The position numbers and the translations under genes were made by a program. From positions 124,001 through 188,000 of the forward strand of contig JAENYT010000002.1 in the NCBI GenBank assembly GCA_016841665.1: 64,000 nt of DNA, given 5' to 3'. This document shows, in pieces, positions 27,384 to 41,760 of the stretch. The notes beneath the pieces are model-generated. The model ran no database searches. It had not been told where the DNA came from and worked only from the letters and a program-made list of their open reading frames with translations. Origin of the DNA: Methanobacteriota archaeon. GTDB lineage: Archaea; Halobacteriota; Methanomicrobia; Methanomicrobiales; Methanomicrobiaceae. How positions within the stretch are numbered: the first letter of the stretch is position 1; every line of letters starts with the position of its first letter.

Positions 27384-28367
27384 ATGTCAAGCGGTACGAA
27401 ACTCCTGACACTGTCGCTCGCGGCCATCCTCGCACTCGGCATCTGCCTTGCGGGATGCACCGGGACAGAAACCCCGGATGGCCAGGCGATACCGAATGAA
27501 ACAGCAACCGAAACGGCAGCGCCTCCCTCCGGCGGGGCGGTACTGAGGATCGCCACGACGACAAGCCTGTACGATACCGGGCTTTTAGATATGATCGAGG
27601 ACACGTATGAAGCAGAGACCGGTGTGGATCTCCTGATCTCCTCGCAGGGAACCGGGAAAGCGATTGAACTGGCGACACGCTGTGATGTGGATATCCTCTT
27701 AGTGCACTCTCCCTCCCAGGAGCAGGCATTTATGGATGCGGGCTACGGGGTCAACCACCGGTGCATCGCCTACAACTTCTTCCAGATTGTAGGCCCCGAG
27801 GCCGACCCGGCAGGCATCGCCGGCATGGACCCGGTTGAGGGATTCAGGGTGCTCTATGAGAAAGGCACGGCCGGCGAGCCGGGTGTGCTGTTCGTCTCCC
27901 GCGGCGACAATTCGGGCACGCACTCCAAGGAGAAAACCCTCTGGGATATGGCCGGCTACGACTACGAGACCGAGGTGCAGGGATCCGGCGAATGGTATAT
28001 CGAAGCCGGCAAGGGCATGGGTGAGACGCTCGTGCTCGCAAGCGAAAAAGACGCCTATACACTGACCGATGAAGGCACGTTCCTTGCGTTCCAGACCGAT
28101 CTGGTGCTCACCCCTATCATCGACCAGGGTGATGCGCTGCTGAACCGCTACAGTATCATCGCGGTGAATCCTGAACAATGCCCCAGTGTCAACATCGAGG
28201 AGGCCAACAACTTCATCGACTGGATCATCTCAGACGAGGGAAAGGGCCTGATCGGTTCATTTGGCGTGGAGGATTACGGAAAAGCGCTCTTCACTCCGCT
28301 CTACCCCCCGGAGTGTACGGCATCCCCGTTCAACTGCACCTGTGCGGAATCGGTATCCAAGGCGTAA
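27384..28367 (+). CDS. tupA: Tungstate ABC transporter, substrate-binding lipoprotein TupA
   Basis: 327 residues. Lipoprotein signal with lipobox CLAGC (Cys near 25), then a Thr/Pro/Glu-rich linker that tethers the domain outside the membrane. The mature domain opens RIATTTSLYDTGLLD, the TTTS oxyanion-binding motif typical of TupA. VLFVSRGDNSGTHSKE follows further on, also a TupA hallmark (second oxyanion contact). It captures tungstate for TupBC encoded just downstream. First gene of the Mo/W island, with its own TATA box. Specificity for tungstate over molybdate is from family. Confidence 0.9.
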   Translation: MSSGTKLLTLSLAAILALGICLAGCTGTETPDGQAIPNETATETAAPPSGGAVLRIATTTSLYDTGLLDMIEDTYEAETGVDLLISSQGTGKAIELATRCDVDILLVHSPSQEQAFMDAGYGVNHRCIAYNFFQIVGPEADPAGIAGMDPVEGFRVLYEKGTAGEPGVLFVSRGDNSGTHSKEKTLWDMAGYDYETEVQGSGEWYIEAGKGMGETLVLASEKDAYTLTDEGTFLAFQTDLVLTPIIDQGDALLNRYSIIAVNPEQCPSVNIEEANNFIDWIISDEGKGLIGSFGVEDYGKALFTPLYPPECTASPFNCTCAESVSKA

Positions 28368-28445
28368 CCGGCCTCACCTGCAACAATTGGCGAGAGGCGA
28401 TGGCGATGAAGAGAGGACATTCCGGCGGGAACCCCGGTATCAGGT

Positions 28446-29132
28446 ATGAATGAGATAGTTCAGGGATTCATCGAAGCGATCGAACTCATCTTATCCCTCG
28501 ATCCCGATGTGATAGAGATCACCGTACGGTCACTCTACGTCTCCCTCTCCGCCACCTTTTTTGCCTCCCTCGTTGCCCTTCCTCTGGGTGCATATATCTA
28601 TTTCAATGAGTTCCGGGGAAAGCGGGCGGTCATCAACCTTCTCCAGACGCTCTACGCACTCCCCACGGTGATCGTCGGTCTGGCCGTCTTCCTGATGCTC
28701 TCCCGTTCAGGTCCCTTCGGGTTTCTGGGGATGCTCTTCACACCCCAGGGCATGATCGTCGCCCAGACAATCCTTATCATTCCGCTCATCACCGGGCTCA
28801 CCGTTTCCGCGCTGAGCGGCATCGACCGGGAGATGCGCTACACCATCATTTCTCTGGGATCGAGCCAGCTGCAGTCGATCATCACCATTCTCAGGGAGGC
28901 GAGATTTGCCATACTGGCGGCGGTACTCCTGGGATTCGGCCGCGCCATCGCCGAGGTGGGAACGGTGATGCTGATCGGCGGCAACATCAGGGGTTTCACG
29001 CGTGTACTCACCACCGCCATCGCCCTCAACACCTCCATGGGGAATTTTTCCTTCTCGATCGCTCTCGGGATCATCCTGCTCGGGGTGGCGCTGGTGGTCA
29101 ATGTCGTTCTCAATCTCGTCCAGGAGCGGTAG
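28446..29132 (+). CDS. tupB: Tungstate ABC transporter permease TupB
   Basis: 228-residue permease with five or six hydrophobic helices. The cytoplasmic coupling loop carries the binding-protein-dependent transport signature (RFAILAAVLLGFGRAIAEVGTVMLIGG; EAA-type loop). It starts 78 bp after tupA and ends 3 bp before tupC, so it is co-transcribed and expected to form a homodimeric channel. Confidence 0.9.
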   Translation: MNEIVQGFIEAIELILSLDPDVIEITVRSLYVSLSATFFASLVALPLGAYIYFNEFRGKRAVINLLQTLYALPTVIVGLAVFLMLSRSGPFGFLGMLFTPQGMIVAQTILIIPLITGLTVSALSGIDREMRYTIISLGSSQLQSIITILREARFAILAAVLLGFGRAIAEVGTVMLIGGNIRGFTRVLTTAIALNTSMGNFSFSIALGIILLGVALVVNVVLNLVQER

Positions 29133-29135
29133 TCG

Positions 29136-30230
29136 ATGATCGAAGCGCAAAACATCACGAAAATCTATGGTGAGATGGAAGTCCTCCACGGCGTCGATCT
29201 CTCGGTCGGAGAGGGGGACATTATGGGGATCATCGGGCCGAGCGGATCAGGAAAAAGCACGTTTTTGCGCATCCTCGACCTTATCGAACCGCCGGACTCA
29301 GGAGACCTCTCTCTCTTCGATGTTAATGTGGTGAAGGAGCGGGACCGCGTGGTCGAGGTGCGGCGGCGGATGGGAATGCTCTTTCAAAAGCCCATCGTCT
29401 TCAACACATCTGTCTACGAAAACGTCGCCCTCGGGTTGAAGTACCGGCATGTAGGCAAGAATGAGATCGACCGGAGCGTGAAGGAGCTGCTGGAGGAGGT
29501 CGGTCTCGCCCGCTACCTCCATAGCAATGCGAGAAATCTATCGGGCGGCGAGCAGCAACGCGTGTCCCTCGCACGAGTGCTCGTTACCGATCCCGAGATC
29601 CTCTTTCTGGACGAACCCACGGCAAATCTGGATCCAAAATCTTCGAAGACTATCGAACGGTTGGTCACGCGCATGAACCGGGACCGGGGGATGACCGTGG
29701 TGATGAACACCCACGATATGCTCCAGGGACAGCGCGTTGCGCAACGCATCGGGGTGATGATCGGGGGCGATATCCTCCAGGTTGGCAGTCCCCGGGAGAT
29801 ATTCTACGCCCCCGAAAGCACGAAAATAGCCAATTTCGTGGGAGTCGACAACATCCACGACGGGAAAGTCCTGAGGAGGGAACACCAGATCACCGCAGTC
29901 GAGGTGGCCGGGACCATCCTCTATGTCGGGGAGTCCCCCCCGGAACAAAGTGACCGTGTCAAGGTCATCTTCAGGGGTGAGGATGTAACCCTCGGTATCG
30001 GAAAAACCGCGCAGACGAGTGCCCGGAACATCCTCAACGGCACCATCGCTGAGATTTCAGATATTGCCCCCTTCGTGCATATAAAGGTCGACTGCGGATT
30101 TCCGGTGAGTGCGCTGGTCACCGTGCGTTCGGCGGAGGAAATGGATCTTTCAGAGGGCAAGCCGGCCTGGGTGTCCATCAAAGCAAGTGCGCTGCACTTG
30201 ATTGCCGAATCGGAGGAGAGCGAGGGATAA
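29136..30230 (+). CDS. tupC: Tungstate ABC transporter ATPase TupC
   Basis: 364 residues. The NBD has Walker A GPSGSGKST near 34, signature LSGGEQQRVSLARVL, and Walker B ILFLDEPTANLD. The C-terminal 130 residues resemble the oxyanion-binding TOBE regulatory domain of ModC-type ATPases (VIFRGEDVTLG, then SARNILNGTIAEI and ALHLI). The TOBE region suggests trans-inhibition by intracellular oxyanion. Third gene of tupABC. Confidence 0.9.
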   Translation: MIEAQNITKIYGEMEVLHGVDLSVGEGDIMGIIGPSGSGKSTFLRILDLIEPPDSGDLSLFDVNVVKERDRVVEVRRRMGMLFQKPIVFNTSVYENVALGLKYRHVGKNEIDRSVKELLEEVGLARYLHSNARNLSGGEQQRVSLARVLVTDPEILFLDEPTANLDPKSSKTIERLVTRMNRDRGMTVVMNTHDMLQGQRVAQRIGVMIGGDILQVGSPREIFYAPESTKIANFVGVDNIHDGKVLRREHQITAVEVAGTILYVGESPPEQSDRVKVIFRGEDVTLGIGKTAQTSARNILNGTIAEISDIAPFVHIKVDCGFPVSALVTVRSAEEMDLSEGKPAWVSIKASALHLIAESEESEG

Positions 30231-30279: not shown

Positions 30280-31086
30280 ATGACTCACAGGCGAGATCTC
30301 GATTCAAAACTCAAGGGCGAATCACTGGTGAGGAAGGGGCTCCTGAAACGATACATGGGCCGGGCTCAGCTGAGGATCGCTCCTGATCTCAATATCATCA
30401 AGATTGGGGGCCACGGGATTATCGATTACGGCGCGCCCGTCGTCAAACCGCTTGCCGAAGAGATCGGTACACTTTCGAAGGAGTACAAAATGCTGGTGGT
30501 GACCGGCGGCGGGGTGAGGGTCCGGCATATCCTGGATATCGGCCTCGACCTTGATATGCCGACCGGGGTTCTCGCCGAACTTGCCGGAAAGATCAGCGAG
30601 CAGAATGCAATCATGATAGCGGTCCTCCTCTCGAAGTACGGCGGCATGCGGATCCATACCGCTGACCTGCTCGACATCCCCATGCTGCTGCGGATGGGGC
30701 TCCTTCCGGTCACCCACGGAACACCCCCCTACGGGCTCTACGAGTACCCCCCCGAGATAGGGATGATCCCTCCCCACCGCACCGACACCGGTGCGTTTCT
30801 CGCCGCAGAGGTGCTGGGCGCACGGTCCTGCATCCTCGTCAAGAACGTGGACGGGCTGTTTACGGAAAACCCCATTGAGAATCCCGATGCGGAACTGATC
30901 CGGGATATCAAGGCGCAGGAGCTCCTCGACATGAATCTGGAGGATATGGTGCTGGAGGACAAGGTAGTGGAGCTCCTCCGTGATGCAAAGAACGTCACCG
31001 AGGTCAGGATCATCAACGGTCACAAGCCGGGGATGCTCGAGAAAGGGCTGAAAGGGGAAAATCCCGGGACGATAATACGGAAATAG
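30280..31086 (+). CDS. Amino-acid-kinase-fold protein related to molybdenum storage protein (MosA/MosB-like)
   Basis: About 268 residues (ATG 30280, 10 nt after gggag; ATG 30271 is the alternative). It has the UMP-kinase-like fold: NIIKIGGHGIIDYGA near the N-terminus, LVVTGGGVRVRHILDIGLDLDMP, SEQNAIMIAVLL, IPPHRTDTGAFLAAEVLGA and ILVKNVDGLFTENP. From memory these blocks match the subunits of the Azotobacter molybdenum storage protein (GAGVRARHVFSVGLDLGLP, IPPHRADTGAFLLADAFGA, ENVDGIYTADP) much better than bacterial PyrH. It lies between tupABC and wtpABC, so storage or buffering of tungstate/molybdate clusters with ATP hydrolysis is a strong inference. A housekeeping UMP kinase is the alternative. 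Confidence 0.8.
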   Translation: MTHRRDLDSKLKGESLVRKGLLKRYMGRAQLRIAPDLNIIKIGGHGIIDYGAPVVKPLAEEIGTLSKEYKMLVVTGGGVRVRHILDIGLDLDMPTGVLAELAGKISEQNAIMIAVLLSKYGGMRIHTADLLDIPMLLRMGLLPVTHGTPPYGLYEYPPEIGMIPPHRTDTGAFLAAEVLGARSCILVKNVDGLFTENPIENPDAELIRDIKAQELLDMNLEDMVLEDKVVELLRDAKNVTEVRIINGHKPGMLEKGLKGENPGTIIRK

Positions 31087-31264: not shown

Positions 31265-32332
31265 ATGAACCGTACGCATACTGTTCTTGTGCTTATCGCG
31301 ATGCTCTGCACCGCAGTGTTTTTATGCGGCTGCACGGGCACAGAGCCCGATCAGGGGCAGCAGACCCCTGCAGCGACTGCAACGCCGACATCTGCGCCAG
31401 CGGAGCCGGCCACCCTTGTGGTCTTCCATGCCGGCAGCCTTGCCAGCCCCTTCGAGGCGCTGGAGGTGGAGTTTGAGGCTGCCTACCCGAATGTCGATGT
31501 GCAGCTCCATCCCGGCGGCAGCACGGCGATAGTCAAGGAGATCGTCGAGCTCGACAAGCATGCCGACGTCCTCGCCTCAGCGGATTACGCGCTCATCCCC
31601 ACTCTCATGGTGCCTGATGATGCGACCTGGTATGTCACCTTCGCCAAGAATACCATGGTCCTGACCTACACCGACCAGAGTCTGTATGCCGACGAGATCA
31701 ATGCCGACAATTGGTACGAGATACTCGCCCGTGACAATGTGCGATGGGCGTTCTCCGACCCGAACATCGATCCCTGTGGCTACCGGACCCCTATGGTCAT
31801 CCAGCTCGCGGAACTCCACTATGGTGACGACCAGATCTTTGAGAACACCATCGGCGAGAACAGCAACATCACAGTGACCGAGCAGGATGGCGAGTACCTG
31901 ATCAACTCCAATAACCCTGAGCCCAACGGACAGCTTTCCATCCGGCCTAAGAGTGTGGAGCTCGTGCAGATGGTGCAGTCCGGCGGTCTGGACTACGCGT
32001 GGGAGTACCGCAGCGTGGCCGTCCAGAACGACCTGAAATTCGTGGAGCTTCCCGAAGCGATCGACCTCTCTTCGATCGAGTATGCCGACACCTATGCACT
32101 GGTAAAGGAGGACTGTGGCGGCGGCATCAAGACTGCGAGCCCCATCGTCTACGGCGTTACCGTGCCCACGAACGCCGACAATCCCGACCTCGGTCTGGCA
32201 TTTGTGGAGATGCTGATCGGCGAGACGGGACAGGGGATCATGGACGAGCAGGGCCAGCCCCCCATCATTCCTGCGGGAGGGTACCTCGAGGTTCCTGAAG
32301 ACCTCAGCTCCCTTGTCGAACAGAAATCCTAA
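31265..32332 (+). CDS. wtpA: Tungstate/molybdate ABC transporter, substrate-binding lipoprotein WtpA
   Basis: 355 residues. Lipobox FLCGC (Cys near 22), then a Thr/Ala/Pro linker to about 50. The WtpA domain starts LVVFHAGSLASPFEAL and continues LHPGGSTAIVKEI, DVLASADYALIP, WAFSDPNIDPCGYR, GGLDYAWEYRSVA and SPIVYGVTVP, the archaeal high-affinity tungstate/molybdate group with octahedral oxyanion coordination by carboxylates. It is followed after 108 bp by wtpB. It has its own AT-rich promoter, separate from tupABC. Confidence 0.93.
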   Translation: MNRTHTVLVLIAMLCTAVFLCGCTGTEPDQGQQTPAATATPTSAPAEPATLVVFHAGSLASPFEALEVEFEAAYPNVDVQLHPGGSTAIVKEIVELDKHADVLASADYALIPTLMVPDDATWYVTFAKNTMVLTYTDQSLYADEINADNWYEILARDNVRWAFSDPNIDPCGYRTPMVIQLAELHYGDDQIFENTIGENSNITVTEQDGEYLINSNNPEPNGQLSIRPKSVELVQMVQSGGLDYAWEYRSVAVQNDLKFVELPEAIDLSSIEYADTYALVKEDCGGGIKTASPIVYGVTVPTNADNPDLGLAFVEMLIGETGQGIMDEQGQPPIIPAGGYLEVPEDLSSLVEQKS

Positions 32333-32333
32333 C

Positions 32334-32355
32334 TTTTTTCCGACTTCCCGGTCGG
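32334..32355 (+). terminator. T-run and hairpin between wtpA and wtpB
   Basis: TTTTTT directly after the wtpA stop, then CCGAC-TTCCCG-GTCGG (32340-32355). This could be a partial terminator or processing site in the 108-bp wtpA-wtpB gap, allowing more binding protein than permease. The stem is short and the call is tentative. Confidence 0.3.
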
Positions 32356-32440
32356 CGTGGAGACAGGATTGTCTGCCGGGCTGGGTATCGCCCGATTCGT
32401 ATGGAAACAGTAACAATCCGATAACATTCAGAGATATACT

Positions 32441-33253
32441 ATGCGCACCAAGCACCGTCTTCCTGATCCCTGTCTGATCTCATTTTCCCTGATCGGCGGA
32501 CTGATCGTCGGGCTGACCGTGCTTGCCCTTCTCAATTTGGCGGTCAAAGAGCTCTCCGATATCCCGTTTCTCATCTCCACGGCATCGGACAGCGACGTGA
32601 TCAATGCAATTGTGGTGACCATGGGGGCGGGGTTAAACGCAGTACTCATTCTCCTCATCATCGGCACCCCGCTCGCCTACGTCCTTGCACGCACCGATTT
32701 TCGGGGAAAAGGCGTGGTGGAGAGTCTTGTGGACATCCCCATCATGTTGCCCCACACCATCGCCGGCATCCTCGTCTACCTCCTGTTCATGCGAAGAGGG
32801 CTCCTCGGGGCGCCGCTCTACGCGGCGGGGTTCACCTTTGAGGATGCCTATCCGGGCATCGTGATCGCCATGCTCTTTGTTTCGGCGCCGTACTACATCA
32901 ATTCGGTGCGGGAGGGATTTGAAAAGGTTCCCGTCCATCTGGAGAATGTGGCACGCACTCTGGGGGCGACCCGGTTCCAGACCTTCATGCGGGTCGTGCT
33001 GCCCCTGAGTGTCCGGCACATCTTCAACGGGAGCATCCTCGCCTGGGGGCGGGCGATCGGTGAGTTTGCCGCTATCATCATGATCGCCTACTACCCCTTT
33101 GTGATCTCGACCCTCATCTACTACACCTTCACCACCAGCGGGATCAAGGCGAGCAGTGCTGTCGCTTTCGTGATGATCCTCGCCTGTTTTGCGGCGTTCA
33201 TAATCTTGCGCCTTCTCACGCGCTACACGGGGAGGTACGATGATCGAGTTTGA
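32441..33253 (+). CDS. wtpB: Tungstate/molybdate ABC transporter permease WtpB
   Basis: 270-residue permease with six predicted helices. The coupling loop is ARTLGATRFQTFMRVVLPLS, followed by SILAWGRAIGEFAAIIMIAY. The first 25 residues before helix 1 are polar (MRTKHRLPDPCLISFS). It overlaps wtpC by 14 bp, implying coupled translation. Receives oxyanion from WtpA. Confidence 0.92.
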   Translation: MRTKHRLPDPCLISFSLIGGLIVGLTVLALLNLAVKELSDIPFLISTASDSDVINAIVVTMGAGLNAVLILLIIGTPLAYVLARTDFRGKGVVESLVDIPIMLPHTIAGILVYLLFMRRGLLGAPLYAAGFTFEDAYPGIVIAMLFVSAPYYINSVREGFEKVPVHLENVARTLGATRFQTFMRVVLPLSVRHIFNGSILAWGRAIGEFAAIIMIAYYPFVISTLIYYTFTTSGIKASSAVAFVMILACFAAFIILRLLTRYTGRYDDRV

Positions 33254-34319
33254 CCACGTCTCGCTGAGTCTGGGCACCTTCGCTCTCAGGGACGTCTGCC
33301 TGAAGATCCGAAAAGGTGACTTCTACTTCATCCTCGGGCCTTCGGGTGCTGGAAAAACGGTGCTTCTCGAGGGTATCGCTGGTCTTCATTCGCCGCAGTC
33401 CGGGCATGTCCTTCTCCGCGGCGAGGATGTCACCGGCATTCCCCCCGAACGAAGGCAAATCGCTCTGGTCTACCAGGACTATTCCCTGTTTCCTCACATG
33501 AACGTTGCCAAGAATATCGCCTTCGGGCTGAAGATGCAAAAGGCCGACCGCCATACCATTGAAAGGCGGGTAGAAGAACTCCTCCGGGCCTTCGATATCG
33601 GCGGGCTCCGTGATCGCTGTCCCCTCACGCTCTCCGGCGGAGAGCAGCAGCGCGTGGCGATCGCCCGCGCTCTTGCCGTGGAACCCGACATCCTTCTTCT
33701 GGACGAGCCTTTTTCTGCCCTCGATCCGGTGAGCAAAGAGAAATTAATCGAAGATCTGCGGGAGATACACCGGACACGCGATCTCACCATCGTCCAGGTC
33801 ACGCACGCCCGCGAGGAAGCGATGCGCCTTGCCACGCGGGTAGCGGTGATCATTGACGGTGTGCTTGTCGCTGAGGATGGTGCGGAGGAGATCTTCAACG
33901 CACCGGAGACCTGCGAACTGGCACGGTTTGTAGGCATTGAAAATATCCTTGAAGGCAGGATCGTGTCCAGCAGCGATCACGTTGTGAGGGTGGATACGGG
34001 AGCTGCAACGATTATTGCTGTCTCAGACCTTTCTAAGGGAGAGGAGGTTGCCGCCTGCTTCCGGGCGGAAGATGTGACCCTTTCACTTCCCGGAAGCTCG
34101 CGATCAAGTGCCCGGAATACATTTGAGGGCACCATTACCGGGTTCACGCCGATGGGACCACTGATGAGGGTCTCGATAGACTGCGGATTTTCCCTCGAGG
34201 CCACGGTTCTCAGGGACACTGTGAAAGAGATGGGGCTCTCTCCCGGGTCGCGGGTCAGCGCTTCGGTCAAAGCGAGCATCATCCATATGACGGTGAGAAC
34301 ACGGGTGATAGGAGATTAG
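33240..34319 (+). CDS. wtpC: Tungstate/molybdate ABC transporter ATPase WtpC with regulatory domain
   Basis: 359 residues. Walker A GPSGAGKTVLLEG, Q-loop VYQDYSLFPHM, signature LSGGEQQRVAIARAL, Walker B ILLLDEPFSALD, switch histidine VTHAREEA. The C-terminal TOBE-like region (about 235-355; EVAACFRAEDVTLSL, NTFEGTITGF) probably senses cytoplasmic Mo/W and shuts the transporter down. The start lies inside wtpB. Confidence 0.92.
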   Translation: MIEFDHVSLSLGTFALRDVCLKIRKGDFYFILGPSGAGKTVLLEGIAGLHSPQSGHVLLRGEDVTGIPPERRQIALVYQDYSLFPHMNVAKNIAFGLKMQKADRHTIERRVEELLRAFDIGGLRDRCPLTLSGGEQQRVAIARALAVEPDILLLDEPFSALDPVSKEKLIEDLREIHRTRDLTIVQVTHAREEAMRLATRVAVIIDGVLVAEDGAEEIFNAPETCELARFVGIENILEGRIVSSSDHVVRVDTGAATIIAVSDLSKGEEVAACFRAEDVTLSLPGSSRSSARNTFEGTITGFTPMGPLMRVSIDCGFSLEATVLRDTVKEMGLSPGSRVSASVKASIIHMTVRTRVIGD

Positions 34320-34399
34320 TTAACAAAGTTTAGTTAATTATTTTGATTTGTAAACTTCAAATATAAACACTTAATTTGCGCGACTTTGAATGCTGGATT
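34320..34399 (+). promoter_or_regulatory. Promoter of modA-1 with direct TTAGTTAA repeats
   Basis: An 80-bp AT-rich gap. TTAGTTAA occurs twice (ttagttaacaaagtttagttaatta). A TATA-like aaatataaac at about 34360-34369 precedes the ATG at 34400 by about 30 bp, which fits a leaderless or very short-leader mRNA. Confidence 0.45.
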
Positions 34400-35248
34400 A
34401 TGAAGAGGTTACTTTCCATTGTCTTCATCGGATTGATGGTGTGTACGGCGCTCTTTGCCTGCGGATGCACCGAATCGCAACCGTCCGCCCCCGCCACCCC
34501 GGTGGGAACACAGACGCCCTCCACAACCGCGACACCGGTCGCAGACACCGGCGAATCCCTCCTGGTATACTGCGGTGCGGGACTGCGGGAGCCCATGGAC
34601 GAGATCGCTGAAGTATTCAGGGCGCAGGAGGGGATCACCATTGAGTATACCTATGGCGGTTCCGCCCAGCTCCTGAGCCAGATCGAGCTCTACCAGAACG
34701 GTGATGCCTACATGCCCGGGGCGAAATCGTACATCGATTCGGCCATCGAGAAGGGCTTCGTGGACAAGACCGAGAAGGTGGTCTACCACGTGCTGACTAT
34801 GGTGGTGCCCAAGGGCAACCCGGCTAATATCCAGACGGTAAAAGATCTCGCCAAATCCGGTGTCCGCGTGGCTATCGGTGAGCCCAGCGGCCCTGCCGTC
34901 GGCCAGGCGGCTAAAAAGATGCTTGAGCAGGATGGCCTGTGGGAGGCGGTCGATGCGAACTGTGTGGTGAAGTCGGGAACGGTCAACGAGCTTTTAGTCT
35001 ACATCTCCATGAACCAGGCGGATGCCGCCATTATCTGGGAGGATCTCTACAACGAGGAGAGCATGGAACTGGTCGACATCCCCATGGAAGAGGGCTTTGT
35101 CAAAGTCATCCCCATCGGGACGCTCACCTTCTCCGAGAACCCTGAAAATGCCGAGAAATTCATGCATTTCGTGGCTTCGGATGAAGGAAAGGCGATCTTC
35201 GAGAAGCACGGCTTCACCACCTACCCTGATGACGTGTACGGCATGTAA
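34400..35248 (+). CDS. modA: Molybdate-binding lipoprotein, ModA type (copy 1)
   Basis: 282 residues from ATG 34400 (MKRLLSIVFIGLMVCTALFACGC, lipobox FACGC). The track start at 34376 precedes the TATA-to-start spacing, so the later Met is preferred. After a Thr/Pro linker the domain shows LLVYCGAGLREPMDEIAEVF, IEYTYGGSAQLLSQIE, ADAAIIWEDL and FTTYPDDVYGM. YCGAG and GGSAQL are the usual oxyanion-binding loops of the ModA fold. It is close in sequence to the next gene, so the pair arose by duplication. Confidence 0.87.
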   Translation: MKRLLSIVFIGLMVCTALFACGCTESQPSAPATPVGTQTPSTTATPVADTGESLLVYCGAGLREPMDEIAEVFRAQEGITIEYTYGGSAQLLSQIELYQNGDAYMPGAKSYIDSAIEKGFVDKTEKVVYHVLTMVVPKGNPANIQTVKDLAKSGVRVAIGEPSGPAVGQAAKKMLEQDGLWEAVDANCVVKSGTVNELLVYISMNQADAAIIWEDLYNEESMELVDIPMEEGFVKVIPIGTLTFSENPENAEKFMHFVASDEGKAIFEKHGFTTYPDDVYGM

Positions 35249-35386
35249 GAGGCCGGTGCATTCCATTTTTTCCATTTTCTGTGTCGAATTGCCCCTTCTG
35301 GACGCGCTGTAAATGTAATCTGATTAACATTATACTCATATCGCAGAATAAGATAAACACTGTTAATTATTATCGAATATCAAGGT
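35249..35386 (+). promoter_or_regulatory. Promoter region of modA-2
   Basis: 138 bp without a gene. AT-rich elements gattaacattatactcatat and cactgttaattattatcg resemble the promoter of modA-1 in GTTAA/TTAAC content, so the two ModA copies may be controlled separately but by related signals. Confidence 0.4.
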
Positions 35387-36220
35387 ATGGTGATGAAACG
35401 TACATTCATTGGCATTTTTACTATCCTTGTTCTCTGCGCTGCATTTTTTGCGGTCGGATGCACCACCGCCCAGAACAGCGTAGGAACCGCGAACGCGGCC
35501 GGGCAGACCGCAGAAGAAGCCCATTCGATCATGATCTATTGCGGTGCCGGAATGCGCGAACCCATGGAGGATATTGCAACGCTCTACGAGGAGCGGTACG
35601 GTGTCCGGGTGAACTACAACTTCGCCGGGTCGGCCAACCTGCTCTCCCAGATGGAGCTGACCGGCATGGGTGATGTCTATATGCCCGGTGCCACCTACTA
35701 CTTCGATGCGGCGCGCGAGAAGGGCTTTGTGAGCGAGGAACGTCTTGTTGCCTACCACGTACCCCTCATCGCCGTGCCGAAGGGCAATCCTGCGGGTATC
35801 ACCTGCCTTGCCGATCTGACCAACCCCGGCGTTGAGGTCGAACTCGGCGACCCGGATGCCTGCGCCATCGGGAAGCTCTCGAACTCGCTGCTGGAGAAGA
35901 ACGGTATCAAGGAAGAGGTGTTTGCGAATGTGCAGTCCCGCAGTGCCACGGTAAACGAACTTCTCGTGCACGTGTCCATGGGGGTCGCCGATGCTGCCAT
36001 CATCTGGGAGGACCTTTTCGAGGACGAGAAGATGGACGCCATCGCCATTCCAAAGGAGCAGAACATCGTCAAGGTTGTCCCCATCGGCGTGCTCACCTTT
36101 TCTGAGCACCCCGAAGACGCCCTTCATTTCGTCGAACTCGTGACTTCCGAGGAGGGCAAGGCAGTCTTCGAGCAGCACGGGTTTACCACCTATCCAAACG
36201 AGTACTACGAAACTACCTGA
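35387..36220 (+). CDS. modA: Molybdate-binding lipoprotein, ModA type (copy 2)
   Basis: 277 residues (ATG 35393, MKRTFIGIF, is an equally good start). Lipobox FAVGC. The binding domain parallels copy 1: IMIYCGAGMREPMEDIATLY, VNYNFAGSANLLSQME, GDVYMPGATYYFDAA, ADAAIIWEDLFEDEK and FTTYPNEYYETT. Loop differences (AGSANLL against GGSAQLL) could alter affinity or ligand. It is followed by trmO-like and modB/modC, so it is probably the direct partner of that permease. Confidence 0.87.
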   Translation: MVMKRTFIGIFTILVLCAAFFAVGCTTAQNSVGTANAAGQTAEEAHSIMIYCGAGMREPMEDIATLYEERYGVRVNYNFAGSANLLSQMELTGMGDVYMPGATYYFDAAREKGFVSEERLVAYHVPLIAVPKGNPAGITCLADLTNPGVEVELGDPDACAIGKLSNSLLEKNGIKEEVFANVQSRSATVNELLVHVSMGVADAAIIWEDLFEDEKMDAIAIPKEQNIVKVVPIGVLTFSEHPEDALHFVELVTSEEGKAVFEQHGFTTYPNEYYETT

Positions 36221-36292
36221 ACAGGGAACCCCGGAGCGCATATCATGAACGAATACACTAAAGGAATTTCGCCTGAAGGAGGCTCGGAAATT

Positions 36293-36790
36293 ATGTACCG
36301 CCCCATCGGGGTGATACACTCCGAGTATACCGAACAAGAGGAGACACCCATTCAGGGGATCTTCAACCCCTCCATGGGCGAAATCGAGGTATTTCCCGAG
36401 TTCGCGGCAGGCCTCGCCGATATCGAGTCGTTCTCGCACCTCTACCTTTTGTACTACTTCCACCGGGCGACCAGTGCGAAGCTCACCCAGAAGCCGTTCC
36501 TCGATGGGGAGAAGGAGCGGGGCATCTTTGCCATTCGCCACTTCAACCGTCCCAACCCGATCGGGCTTTCCATCGTGGAGCTGGTGGAGGTGAGGGGTAA
36601 CATCCTGGTTATCCGTGGCGTCGATATCCTCGACGGCACCCCGCTGCTGGACATCAAGCCCTACGTGCGCCAGTTCGATCACCGCGACGAGGTGAAGAGC
36701 GGCTGGGTGGATAACCAGCATACCGACGACATCGCCGTATGGAATGCCTCACCGCGGGGCCTGCGGGACCGGGGGAGGACAAACCTGTGA
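36293..36790 (+). CDS. TrmO-like (TsaA/UPF0066) S-adenosylmethionine-dependent methyltransferase
   Basis: 165 residues from ATG 36293, preceded by a strong Shine-Dalgarno (gaaggaggc, 10 nt upstream); ATG 36245 is the alternative. The single-sheet barrel family motifs are present: YRPIGVIHSEYTEQEETPIQG, IESFSHLYLLYYFHRA, GIFAIRHFNRPNPIGLSIVEL and LLDIKPYV. Bacterial TrmO methylates t6A37 in tRNA-Thr. It lies between modA-2 and modB and its TGA overlaps the modB GTG, so it belongs to the molybdate operon. Either a passenger or a Mo/W-linked SAM enzyme. Confidence 0.83.
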   Translation: MYRPIGVIHSEYTEQEETPIQGIFNPSMGEIEVFPEFAAGLADIESFSHLYLLYYFHRATSAKLTQKPFLDGEKERGIFAIRHFNRPNPIGLSIVELVEVRGNILVIRGVDILDGTPLLDIKPYVRQFDHRDEVKSGWVDNQHTDDIAVWNASPRGLRDRGRTNL

Positions 36791-37581
36791 ATGTTTTCCG
36801 GCATCCCCCCCTGAAAGTGGGGACCATCGCCGCAGGCATGATCCTCAGCGCATTTATTCTGGTGCTGCTCTTTCTCATCGTGAGCCACCCCTCGCCGGAA
36901 AATCTTATCTCGTCCATGTTTTCACCGGAGATCCGGTTTGCCATCTACCTGAGCCTGCTCACCTCGGTGGTGTCGACCGCGCTGTGCATCATCATCGCCG
37001 TCCCGGCCGCCTATGGTCTCGCGCGCTATGATTTTCTTGGGAAAAGCATTGTCAATACCACGCTCGACATGCCCCTCGCCCTGCCGCCCCTTGTTGCGGG
37101 TGTAGGGCTGTTGCTCTTCTTCGGAACAAGCCCGTTTGGAAAGGCGCTTGCAGAGGCGGGTCTGGTGTTCGTCTTCACCCCGCTGGGCATCATCATCGCT
37201 CAGTTCTTCGTGAACATGCCGTTCATGATCCGCATTATGCGCTCGACCTTCGAGAGCATCAGCCCTCGCTACGAGTATGTGGCAAAGACGCTGGGGTGCA
37301 CGGATACCCAGGCTGTGTGGCGGGTCACGCTCCCCATGGCGGCGAGCGGATTTTTCGCGGGAGCGGTGATCACGTGGGCGAAGGGGATTGGCGAGTTCGG
37401 TGCCGCCCTGCTCCTTGCCGGTGCGACGCGCATGGTGACGGAGACCCTGCCCATCTCGCTCTTCCTGAACATGTCCTGCGGCAAGCTGAACCTGGCGATC
37501 TCCGCAGCCACCATCCTGATCGCCATCTCCATCATTTCCCTGTACGTGTTCGAACGCTACGGGGGGAGTGCCCGCTTCTAG
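36787..37581 (+). CDS. modB: Molybdate ABC transporter permease ModB
   Basis: 264 residues from GTG 36787 (VNVFRHPPLKVG), overlapping the upstream stop as GTGA. Six helices. The coupling loop is AKTLGCTDTQAVWRVTLPMA, followed by AVITWAKGIGEFGAALLLAGATRM. The family covers molybdate, tungstate and sulfate permeases; the context of ModA and ModC supports molybdate/tungstate. Twelve bp separate it from modC. Confidence 0.9.
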   Translation: MNVFRHPPLKVGTIAAGMILSAFILVLLFLIVSHPSPENLISSMFSPEIRFAIYLSLLTSVVSTALCIIIAVPAAYGLARYDFLGKSIVNTTLDMPLALPPLVAGVGLLLFFGTSPFGKALAEAGLVFVFTPLGIIIAQFFVNMPFMIRIMRSTFESISPRYEYVAKTLGCTDTQAVWRVTLPMAASGFFAGAVITWAKGIGEFGAALLLAGATRMVTETLPISLFLNMSCGKLNLAISAATILIAISIISLYVFERYGGSARF

Positions 37582-37593
37582 GAGGCCCCGTTT

Positions 37594-38640
37594 ATGCTGC
37601 ATATTGAACACGTATCCAAGGACATGGGAGAGTTTACGCTCAAGGACATCTCTTTGGAAGTGCCGCAGGGTGAGTATGTGGTCATTATCGGTCCCACCGG
37701 AGCGGGCAAGACCATCCTCCTGGAAACCGTGGCCGGCATCTATCAGCCTGAAAGCGGCAGGGTATGTCTCAGGGGGCGGGATATCACCCACGAAGAGCCA
37801 AGGAACCGCAACATCTGCATGGTGTACCAGGACTACATGCTCTTTCCCCATCTCTCCGTACACGACAACATTTCGTTCGGGCTCCGGAACCGGAAGTTGG
37901 AAAAACCAGAGATTGAACGGCGGGTCGAGGAGAGCGCAGCACTTCTCGGGATATCTCATCTCCTCCACCGCTGCCCCGATACCCTCTCCGGCGGGGAGCA
38001 GCAGCGCGCCGCCATTGCCCGTGCCATCGTCATGGAACCCTCGGTGCTCCTGCTCGACGAACCGCTCAGCGCACTCGACGGTCGGACCCGCGAAGCCCTC
38101 AGGAAAGAACTGCAACGCCTGCATGACGCGATGGATATCACCGTGCTCCACATCACGCATAATTTTGAGGAGGTCTTCTCGCTTGCAGACCGTGTGGCGG
38201 TCATGAACCATGGAGAGATCGTCCAGGTGGGTGCGCCGGACGAGGTGTTTCGAAAACCGAACTGCGAATTCATTGCCGATTTCGTGGGAGTGGAAAACCT
38301 CTTCAAAGGGATGTGCAGACTGGACAACGGCAATGCCGTCATCGAAACCGAAGCCCTTTGTCTTGTCTCGACAACCTGTTCCAGGGACGGAGAGGTGTTT
38401 GTCTCCATTCGGCCGGAGGATATCATGGTCTCGAGAGCAAAGCCGGAAATCAGTGCGCAGAATGTATTTTCAGGGAAGGTCACAGAGAGTGTTGATGCAG
38501 GGATGGTGATGCGGGTGGTGGTCGATGCGGGTCTTCCCTTCGTGGTCACTCTCACCCGTCAGGCGTATCAAGATCTGGACATAAAGGAGGGAGATCCCGT
38601 CTATATCCTCTTCAAAGCAGCATCAGTGCATGTATTCTAA
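37594..38640 (+). CDS. modC: Molybdate ABC transporter ATPase ModC with TOBE domain
   Basis: 348 residues. Walker A GPTGAGKTILLET, Q-loop VYQDYMLFPHL, signature LSGGEQQRAAIARAI, Walker B VLLLDEPLSALDG, switch histidine ITHNFEEV. The C-terminal TOBE-type region (VFVSIRPEDIMVSR, NVFSGKVTESV, LFKAASVHVF) should bind oxyanion and inhibit the complex. End of the modA2-trmO-modB-modC set. Confidence 0.92.
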   Translation: MLHIEHVSKDMGEFTLKDISLEVPQGEYVVIIGPTGAGKTILLETVAGIYQPESGRVCLRGRDITHEEPRNRNICMVYQDYMLFPHLSVHDNISFGLRNRKLEKPEIERRVEESAALLGISHLLHRCPDTLSGGEQQRAAIARAIVMEPSVLLLDEPLSALDGRTREALRKELQRLHDAMDITVLHITHNFEEVFSLADRVAVMNHGEIVQVGAPDEVFRKPNCEFIADFVGVENLFKGMCRLDNGNAVIETEALCLVSTTCSRDGEVFVSIRPEDIMVSRAKPEISAQNVFSGKVTESVDAGMVMRVVVDAGLPFVVTLTRQAYQDLDIKEGDPVYILFKAASVHVF

Positions 38641-38685: not shown

Positions 38686-39795
38686 ATGACAGGAATCCCT
38701 GCACTGCGCCTGCACCCCGAGGAGATCGCAGGCTCAGTGGGTAATTTTGGGACCGTACTGCCCATCGTCTTTGGCGTGGCTGCCGTATCTGACATCAACC
38801 TCGGCACCGTCCTCCTCTTCTTTGCCCTGTGGTACGCGGTGATCGGGATCGTCTACGGCATCCCTGTTCCCGTGGAGCCCCTGAAGGTGGTGGGTGCAGT
38901 GGTTATCGCCGAAGGCCTCTCTTCGGGCGATATCATGGCGGCGGGGATGCTCACCGGCCTGATATTCCTGTTTCTCGGGCTCATCAAAGGGATGCGCTAT
39001 ATCAGGGAAAAGATCCCCATAAGCGTGATCCGGGGGATCCAGCTGGGGCTCGCATTGGTACTGTTGAACACCTCTCTCCGGTTCATCAGCCAGGATCCCG
39101 CCTTTGCGCTGGGGGCGATAGGGCTTATCGTCCTCTTTTTTATCGCCAGCACCCGGTGGACCGTTCCGGACGTATCGGCGCTGATGGTCATCATCGCAGG
39201 GATTGCAGTCGGCGTAGCAGCCTACGGGATACCTCCGCTGCAATTGCCCCCGGTTCCCGGCATCATCATACCCGATATGCAGAACATCATCACGGCGCTG
39301 GTGCGGCTCGTGCCGCCGCAGTTTCCCCTGACCCTCACCAACGCCATCCTCGCCACCTCAGTGCTCGCCCACGATCTCTACAAACGCGATATTGAGCCCG
39401 ATCGGCTTTCCATCACCATCGGGCTCATGAATATCCTTTCTGTGCCCTTCGGCGCGTTTCCCATGTGCCATGGAGCGGGTGGGCTCGCTGCGCATTACCG
39501 CTTCGGGGGAAGAACAGCCCTCTCCAATATCATCGGCGGCATGATCCTGCTCGGGTTTGCGCTCTTCTTTGCAGATCCCGATACGCTCAGCATTCTCCCT
39601 GCGGGAATGTTCGGCGCCCTGCTGGTTTTCGTGGGAATCGAGCTGGCAAAACACGGCATTAAAACCGATGATCGCCTCATTTCTGGAATTATGGCCTTTG
39701 TGGCGCTTATCGGCGGGATGACCCTGGCATTCGTAGTAGGCCTTATCCTTGCGGAAATACGCCGTCGTATGCATGTCCGGTCGGATTCGGGCTAA
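38686..39795 (+). CDS. MOT1-like molybdate/sulfate permease
   Basis: 369 residues with about ten to twelve membrane segments. It resembles the MOT1/SulP-like molybdate transporter family: EIAGSVGNFGTVLPIVFG near the N-terminus, VPVEPLKVVGAVVIAEG, and FPMCHGAGGLAAHYRFGGRT in the second half, which are the paired family motifs. Unlike the neighbouring systems it is a secondary carrier. It begins 45 bp after modC on the same strand and is probably co-regulated. Substrate is inferred from family and place. Confidence 0.85.
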   Translation: MTGIPALRLHPEEIAGSVGNFGTVLPIVFGVAAVSDINLGTVLLFFALWYAVIGIVYGIPVPVEPLKVVGAVVIAEGLSSGDIMAAGMLTGLIFLFLGLIKGMRYIREKIPISVIRGIQLGLALVLLNTSLRFISQDPAFALGAIGLIVLFFIASTRWTVPDVSALMVIIAGIAVGVAAYGIPPLQLPPVPGIIIPDMQNIITALVRLVPPQFPLTLTNAILATSVLAHDLYKRDIEPDRLSITIGLMNILSVPFGAFPMCHGAGGLAAHYRFGGRTALSNIIGGMILLGFALFFADPDTLSILPAGMFGALLVFVGIELAKHGIKTDDRLISGIMAFVALIGGMTLAFVVGLILAEIRRRMHVRSDSG

Positions 39796-41061: not shown

Positions 41062-41760
41062 ATGACGCTCTACCTTTCCATTGACGATACTGACGACCCG
41101 GTTTCCCCCGGAACAGGGAACCTGGCGAGGAGAATTGCAGATCACATTACGACCGACTACCGGGTGCTCGGCGTGACCCGGCACCAGCTCTTCACCCACC
41201 CGGATATCCCCATGACCTCACACAACAGCTGTGCAGTAATCCATATAGAAAACGGACGCTCCGGGGCTGCTCTCGACATTTACTCCCGTGCGCGGGAGAT
41301 GGTTCTTGAATCTTGCGCGCCCGGAAGCAACCCTGGTATCGCCCTCACTGTGGGTGACCGTATATCCCCGGAGATCACCGCCTTCGGGCTTGCGGCGAAG
41401 GACTCGATCCTCACCATCGCCGGAGCGCGGGCTCTTGCCGCCACTGCTGGGATTCTCGCAGAAGGGTTTGGCGATACGGGAGGCGGCATCATCGGATCGA
41501 TCGCCGGTATAGGGCTTGCAGGCCTGCAAAACGACGGGAGGTTTGTACAGAAAGGGGATCTGAGGAGTATGCGGGGGAGGCAGCCGGTTTCGACCCTGCT
41601 TCGCTCCGGGATCGACAGGGTTGTCACCCGTGATGGGATCCCTCTCACACAAGGACTGGTTGCCCTGCAGAAGTTTCCCCGCCCCGCGTGTGTCAACGGC
41701 GAGGCTGTGCTCTTTGTCGAGCAGTCAGGTGAGGAATTCATCGACCTCAAGCTCGGGTGA
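41062..41760 (+). CDS. TiaS-like protein (N-terminal IDDTD domain, short form)
   Basis: 232 residues from ATG 41062. The N-terminus LYLSIDDTDDPVSPGTGNLARRIAD carries the IDDTD motif of TiaS, which makes agmatidine at C34 of tRNA-Ile2 in archaea. The FLD-like region with GGGIIGSIAGIGLAGLQNDGRF follows. It stops before the OB and zinc-ribbon domains of full TiaS (usually over 400 residues), so it is a short paralogue found in methanogens and not the complete enzyme. It probably binds nucleotide or RNA. No operon partner. Confidence 0.7.
   Translation: MTLYLSIDDTDDPVSPGTGNLARRIADHITTDYRVLGVTRHQLFTHPDIPMTSHNSCAVIHIENGRSGAALDIYSRAREMVLESCAPGSNPGIALTVGDRISPEITAFGLAAKDSILTIAGARALAATAGILAEGFGDTGGGIIGSIAGIGLAGLQNDGRFVQKGDLRSMRGRQPVSTLLRSGIDRVVTRDGIPLTQGLVALQKFPRPACVNGEAVLFVEQSGEEFIDLKLG

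Follow-up and report, generated by a model that had tools for sequence, protein, structure and literature searches.

An archaeal, single-subunit member of the molybdenum storage protein family encoded among tungstate and molybdate uptake genes

The closest described relatives of the protein reported here are MosA and MosB, the products of two genes in Azotobacter vinelandii and Azospirillum, which make up the (αβ)3 heterohexamer of the molybdenum storage protein (MoSto). MosA residues Glu129 and His156 covalently bind an octamolybdate cluster (PMC4504029), and the histidine ligand of the three-fold tungsten cluster in MosA is likely to be His140. Structures of Azotobacter MoSto filled with polyoxotungstates (PDB 2ogx and 7zse) show that the MoSto scaffold can hold tungsten. 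The Tub/Mop TOBE-domain proteins have also been proposed as an intracellular tungsten/molybdenum buffer, in anaerobes that contain tungstoenzymes, but their fold is unrelated to that of MoSto, and Tub of Eubacterium limosum binds eight single oxyanions per hexamer (PMC11980592), unlike the MoSto family, which uses ATP and builds clusters. No archaeal form of MoSto is apparent in the titles and abstract openings that make up most of the searched literature mentioning the protein; the subscription papers of the structural group lay outside that search, and an earlier notice is possible.

We analyzed a 64,000-nucleotide stretch of the genome of an archaeon of the order Methanomicrobiales (here called the window). 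An earlier note, made from its letters alone, had placed a gene for a MoSto-like protein at 30280-31086, between tupABC and wtpABC, and had proposed a link to tungstate/molybdate uptake. We found an intact open reading frame at 30280-31086 (+), which encodes 268 amino acids when started at ATG 30280. The mechanically called start is ATG 30271, but the start chosen in the note is the better one, because the homologues begin at the residue that ATG 30280 encodes, and ~9 bases upstream of this codon is the purine-rich sequence GGGAG. Both motifs quoted in the note are present in the protein. TupABC-like genes do lie upstream and WtpABC genes downstream, with the TupA and TupB matches below their equivalog cut-offs, and these flanking genes support the proposed link to uptake. 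The features of the locus are as follows, with protein residues numbered from ATG 30280.

27384..28367 (+), TupA-like tungstate-binding protein with a TTTS motif (NF041772, 216 bits, below the equivalog cut-off of 400)
28446..29132 (+), TupB-like permease (its tungstate-transporter model match ranks after a general permease subfamily model and is below the equivalog cut-off)
29136..30230 (+), TupC-like ATPase with a TOBE domain
30280..31086 (+), MoSto-family gene, single-subunit archaeal form, 268 aa; the protein has the MosB-type active-site lysines K41 and K188, RxRH at 80-83, the PPY loop at 149-151 and the N-terminal arm at about 1-38
31265..32332 (+), WtpA tungstate/molybdate-binding protein (above both NCBIfam cut-offs)
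32441..33253 (+), WtpB permease
33240..34319 (+), WtpC ATPase with a TOBE domain
34376..35248 (+), ModA-type binding protein 1 (TIGR01256, 99.4 bits, above cut-off)
35387..36220 (+), ModA-type binding protein 2 (50% identity to ModA-type protein 1)
36245..36790 (+), TrmO-like (TsaA) protein within the mod cluster
36739..37581 (+), ModB-type permease (TIGR01581, above cut-off)
37594..38640 (+), ModC/WtpC-type ATPase with a TOBE domain (NF040840, above cut-off)
38686..39795 (+), MOT1-family molybdate transporter (PF16983, 174 bits)
41062..41760 (+), stand-alone protein corresponding to the ATP-using domain of TiaS, a recurrent MoSto neighbor in archaea and bacteria

Four tungstate/molybdate uptake systems therefore form one co-directional array: the TupABC-like genes (27384-30230) come first and WtpABC (31265-34319) second, followed by a Mod-type system that has two binding-protein genes (34376-38640) and, last, MOT1 (38686-39795). 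The MoSto gene lies 178 bases upstream of wtpA and 49 bases downstream of the end of the TupC-like gene (30230), and because this second gap is so short, the TupC-like and MoSto genes are likely to be cotranscribed. A search upstream of the MoSto gene found no riboswitch, the single match being to a long noncoding RNA family, below threshold and attributable to chance, and promoter and terminator scans, which apply bacterial consensus sequences to an archaeal host, gave nothing that clearly exceeded shuffled expectation. The TrmO/TsaA-like gene at 36245-36790 (+) inside the mod cluster has counterparts in the mod clusters of many relatives.

The claim of the note that the protein resembles MoSto more closely than UMP kinase was borne out when it was compared with all PDB chains by phmmer, the matches being to MosB (2ogx_B, E = 2.4e-57), MosA (2ogx_A, E = 3e-45) and, at best among UMP kinases, E = 1.3e-10. 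Full-length identity to MosB is ~41%. An AlphaFold model made with 55 aligned homologues as input (pLDDT 93.1, pTM 0.90) gave the same answer in Foldseek, where MoSto chains took the first 15 places among the PDB matches (highest TM 0.92, lowest E 1e-28) and UMP kinases came next (TM 0.70, E about 1e-15). In an alignment with MosA, MosB and PyrH, the protein shares the RxRH motif with MoSto and has two further features of that family, both also seen in the AlphaFold model and Foldseek matches: the N-terminal arm, ~38 residues that precede the first strand, and the PPY loop (HGTPPYGLYEYPPEIGMIPPHRTD), an insertion at a site that in PyrH is no more than a short turn. In a maximum-likelihood tree, of the kind the note had called for, the MoSto family (the window protein, methanogen and Desulfobacterota homologues, MosA and MosB) was separated from nine PyrH proteins with split support of 100/99, placing the window protein apart from archaeal PyrH. 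Distant amino-acid kinases as a root led to long-branch problems and PyrH was kept as the sole outgroup; as a consequence, the order of groups inside the MoSto family is not firm. MosA and MosB are thus nearer to the protein than UMP kinase and other amino-acid kinases are, and chance can be excluded, given that the majority of the genomes of the order (152/232) carry a full-length homologue. We concluded that the gene encodes an archaeal member of the molybdenum storage protein family, in single-subunit form.

The protein does share the amino-acid-kinase superfamily (PF00696, 90 bits) with archaeal PyrH, at a TM of about 0.70, and its Azospirillum relatives are publicly annotated as uridine kinase, as might be expected of an additional UMP kinase or of a paralogue among the nucleotide kinases. 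However, the curated model for archaeal PyrH gave it only 62.8 bits, far short of the cut-off (158). A second pyrH, sought at the suggestion of the note, was found as a strong separate match elsewhere in the same genome (G000:C42:7580-8242, 265.8 bits against the same cut-off), which is the true pyrH of this organism, and all 14 of the genomes tested had a separate pyrH match. The arm and the PPY loop are MoSto specific and, like RxRH, are missing from PyrH, which forms a clade of its own; furthermore, none of the characterized recurrent neighbors is a pyrimidine gene. On the low PyrH score, the presence of pyrH elsewhere and the tree split, we rejected identity as UMP kinase, and the paralogue reading is so strongly disfavored that we give it next to no weight.

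K41 corresponds to K42 of MosB, the position mutated in PDB 6ris (title: Kb42S variant), and K188 corresponds to K189 of MosB, which is replaced by Glu190 in MosA. K41, R80, R82, H83, T148, P149, E155, R167, D169 and K188 were each invariant in 38/38 archaeal-type rows of the alignment (the Geobacter copy discussed below included). Because both lysines of the MosB-type ATP site are identical in all 38 rows, every subunit looks MosB-like and catalytic. The MosA cluster ligands Glu129, His140 and His156 were missing from the window protein in the alignment. They are likewise missing from MosB and the Desulfobacterota homologues, implying that these residues mark the MosA subtype and not the whole family, and since they are not conserved, the cluster chemistry of Azotobacter cannot be transferred to the archaeal protein. 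Position 148, which is equivalent to Met149 of MosB, is Thr in 38/38 archaeal-type rows; a 2019 PNAS study is said to have proposed Met149 of MosB as a gate for pushing molybdate through.

Homologues (E ≤ 1e-20) were found in 152/232 genomes of the order and in 96/135 of those of high quality, so that about one-third of the genomes of the order, some of them incomplete, had no match. Among genomes sampled evenly across the phylum, 67/394 had a homologue (9 of the 67 lay outside the order), as did 26/395 genomes of the phylum to which a matching Geobacter genome belongs. A single match was present in 141 of the 152 homologue-bearing genomes of the order, which makes a homohexamer plausible. As the gene is single here as well, with no two-gene (αβ)3 arrangement, we filed it as a variant of the family and not as a MosA/MosB-type MoSto.

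Within the order, tandem copies occurred only in one genus-level group of methanogens (loci L103 and L106, in genomes G085 and G088), where they lie ~1.1 to 1.4 kb apart and both keep the catalytic lysines; such a pair is a possible archaeal two-subunit store. Some Desulfobacterota genomes also carry pairs, and at two loci in that phylum (L079 and L083, in genomes G904 and G600) one copy of each pair has Gly at the K41 position, which by its sequence would be a second, independent-looking pairing of an active with an inactive subunit beside MosA/MosB. Such pairs point to more than one origin of two-subunit stores, although the order of groups in the tree is not firm.

To examine genomic context, we fetched ~9 kb of flanking sequence around 42 archaeal loci and 26 bacterial ones, with contig ends cutting some of them short. 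A gene for molybdenum/tungsten transport, regulation, cofactor synthesis or a dependent enzyme was found nearby at 39/42 archaeal and 14/26 bacterial loci, and a molybdenum/tungsten-binding protein or MOT1 was found at 37/42 and 12/26, respectively. By comparison, such genes were present in 0/14 control stretches around pyrH and 0/6 at fixed positions (for the archaeal loci, which are not independent of one another, Fisher p = 2e-13). The neighbors included MOT1, ModE-type and HTH-PBP_like regulators, the alpha subunit of formate dehydrogenase and MoeA. The arrangement of the nearest transporter fell into about 20 classes, and because it varies in this way among loci, the linkage has survived, or been re-established, across many rearrangements. 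Thus, linkage to genes for the uptake and regulation of these metals and for enzymes that use them is conserved, as are the catalytic residues, whereas the mosA and mosB genes of Azospirillum, whose plasmids served together with the PDB sequences as the MosA/MosB references, have no adjoining tungstate/molybdate transporters.

In Geobacter sp. UBA5735, the gene order is tupAABC-moeA-moaC-mogA-MoSto, a tungsten aldehyde oxidoreductase gene adjoins MoSto, and other neighbors are porin-like and ribonuclease-like genes. We considered whether this copy lies on a contaminating methanogen contig and think it unlikely; since the neighbors look bacterial, the gene is probably within the bacterial genome, and it may have been acquired by transfer.

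The reading that we favor, and think probable, is that the protein is a six-copy, ATP-driven storage cage for tungstate/molybdate that feeds tungsto/molybdopterin enzymes. We infer the homohexameric assembly, the ATP-driven loading, the storage as clusters and the metal preference. Six copies would form a hexameric cage like that of UMP kinase, in which each subunit, through its MosB-type lysines K41 and K188, would spend ATP on activating a tungstate or molybdate ion as it arrives; the activated ion would be driven across the wall of the cage close to the PPY loop, the metal would be kept inside as polyoxo-clusters, and it would later be released to tungsto/molybdopterin synthesis, for example, for formylmethanofuran dehydrogenase and formate dehydrogenase. 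The missing MosA cluster ligands, the Thr at the Met149 position and the third of the order that has no homologue all count against a storage cage, and the strongest doubt is that the neighborhood alone does not separate storage from another ATP-dependent oxyanion function, such as transient activation for cofactor insertion.

A protein of this latter kind would be an oxyanion-activating kinase that transiently phosphorylates or otherwise activates tungstate or molybdate and hands it to MoeA-type insertion without building large clusters. The invariance of both active-site lysines, the loss of the cluster-holding residues of MosA and the presence of moeA, mogA or moaC near some copies would all be consistent with such an activity. 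However, the MoSto-specific N-terminal arm is complete and the PPY loop is kept, the fold is far nearer to MoSto than to any kinase, and MoeA-type genes are found near only 5/42 archaeal copies versus 37/42 for uptake genes, so we consider an activating kinase unlikely.

A predicted winged-helix protein of ~118 amino acids, which belongs to no Pfam family, is encoded near the MoSto gene at 32/42 archaeal loci, usually divergently (for example, L009:10850-11203 on the minus strand), and is possibly a regulator of the MoSto gene. It could also be the effector of a sensor or regulator built on a MoSto-like scaffold, which would report the tungstate/molybdate status of the cell to the adjoining transporters; the very tight linkage to transporters speaks for this reading as well. 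Nevertheless, full conservation of the catalytic lysines is unexpected in a pure sensor, some loci already have dedicated regulators (ModE, HTH-PBP_like), and in the genus of the window no such winged-helix gene was detected. A sensory role is accordingly, in our view, still less likely than the kinase activity just described, and the storage cage remains the reading that we prefer.

We also asked whether the gene accompanies nitrogen fixation. Above the cut-off, nifD was present in only 5/20 tested homologue-bearing genomes, and the 15 without it, in which these hosts differ from those of MosA/MosB, include several at ≥98% completeness. The system is therefore not tied to nitrogen fixation, and a role in that process is not supported. 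Methanogen nifH matches were near or below the cut-off and are probably the related CfbC. A demand for the metals is apparent in the window's genome, which encodes two formylmethanofuran dehydrogenase B subunits above the cut-off and has two weaker molybdopterin-oxidoreductase matches on contig C34.

MoSto-type storage is thus probably much wider than the nitrogen-fixing bacteria. A broader proposal, for and against which we find the case evenly balanced, is that MoSto is not mainly a specialty of nitrogen fixation; rather, a single-subunit, homohexameric, uptake-linked tungsten/molybdenum store would be found widely among hydrogenotrophic methanogens and in some Desulfobacterota and may have come first, with two-subunit stores (MosA/MosB, the tandem methanogen pairs and the Desulfobacterota pairs with one lysine-less copy) derived from it several times. 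The first step of CO2 reduction in methanogens depends on tungsten or molybdenum. If the storage reading is right, ATP-driven polyoxometalate storage would be common in these organisms and would account for their buffering of a metal in short supply, a probably homomeric and hence simpler protein would be available for studying the loading and release of MoSto clusters, and the UMP/uridine kinase labels on relatives would be corrected. In public plasmid records of Azospirillum, MosB genes labeled uridine kinase or uridine monophosphate kinase (L043, 7983-8795; L045, 8028-8840) adjoin correctly named MosA genes.

The stand-alone TiaS-domain protein encoded at 41062-41760 was modeled by AlphaFold with a pLDDT of 91.9, and its best nine Foldseek matches were all TiaS (TM 0.46 to 0.55). 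A gene for such a protein lies within ~9 kb of MoSto at 10/42 archaeal and 12/26 Desulfobacterota loci, against 1/14 control stretches, making its product a candidate partner in tungsten/molybdenum handling. At three loci from relatives of the window's family (L100, L101 and L107), the MoSto gene lies just upstream of a conserved five-gene block, which, from reading the sequences, resembles the methyl-coenzyme M reductase operon.
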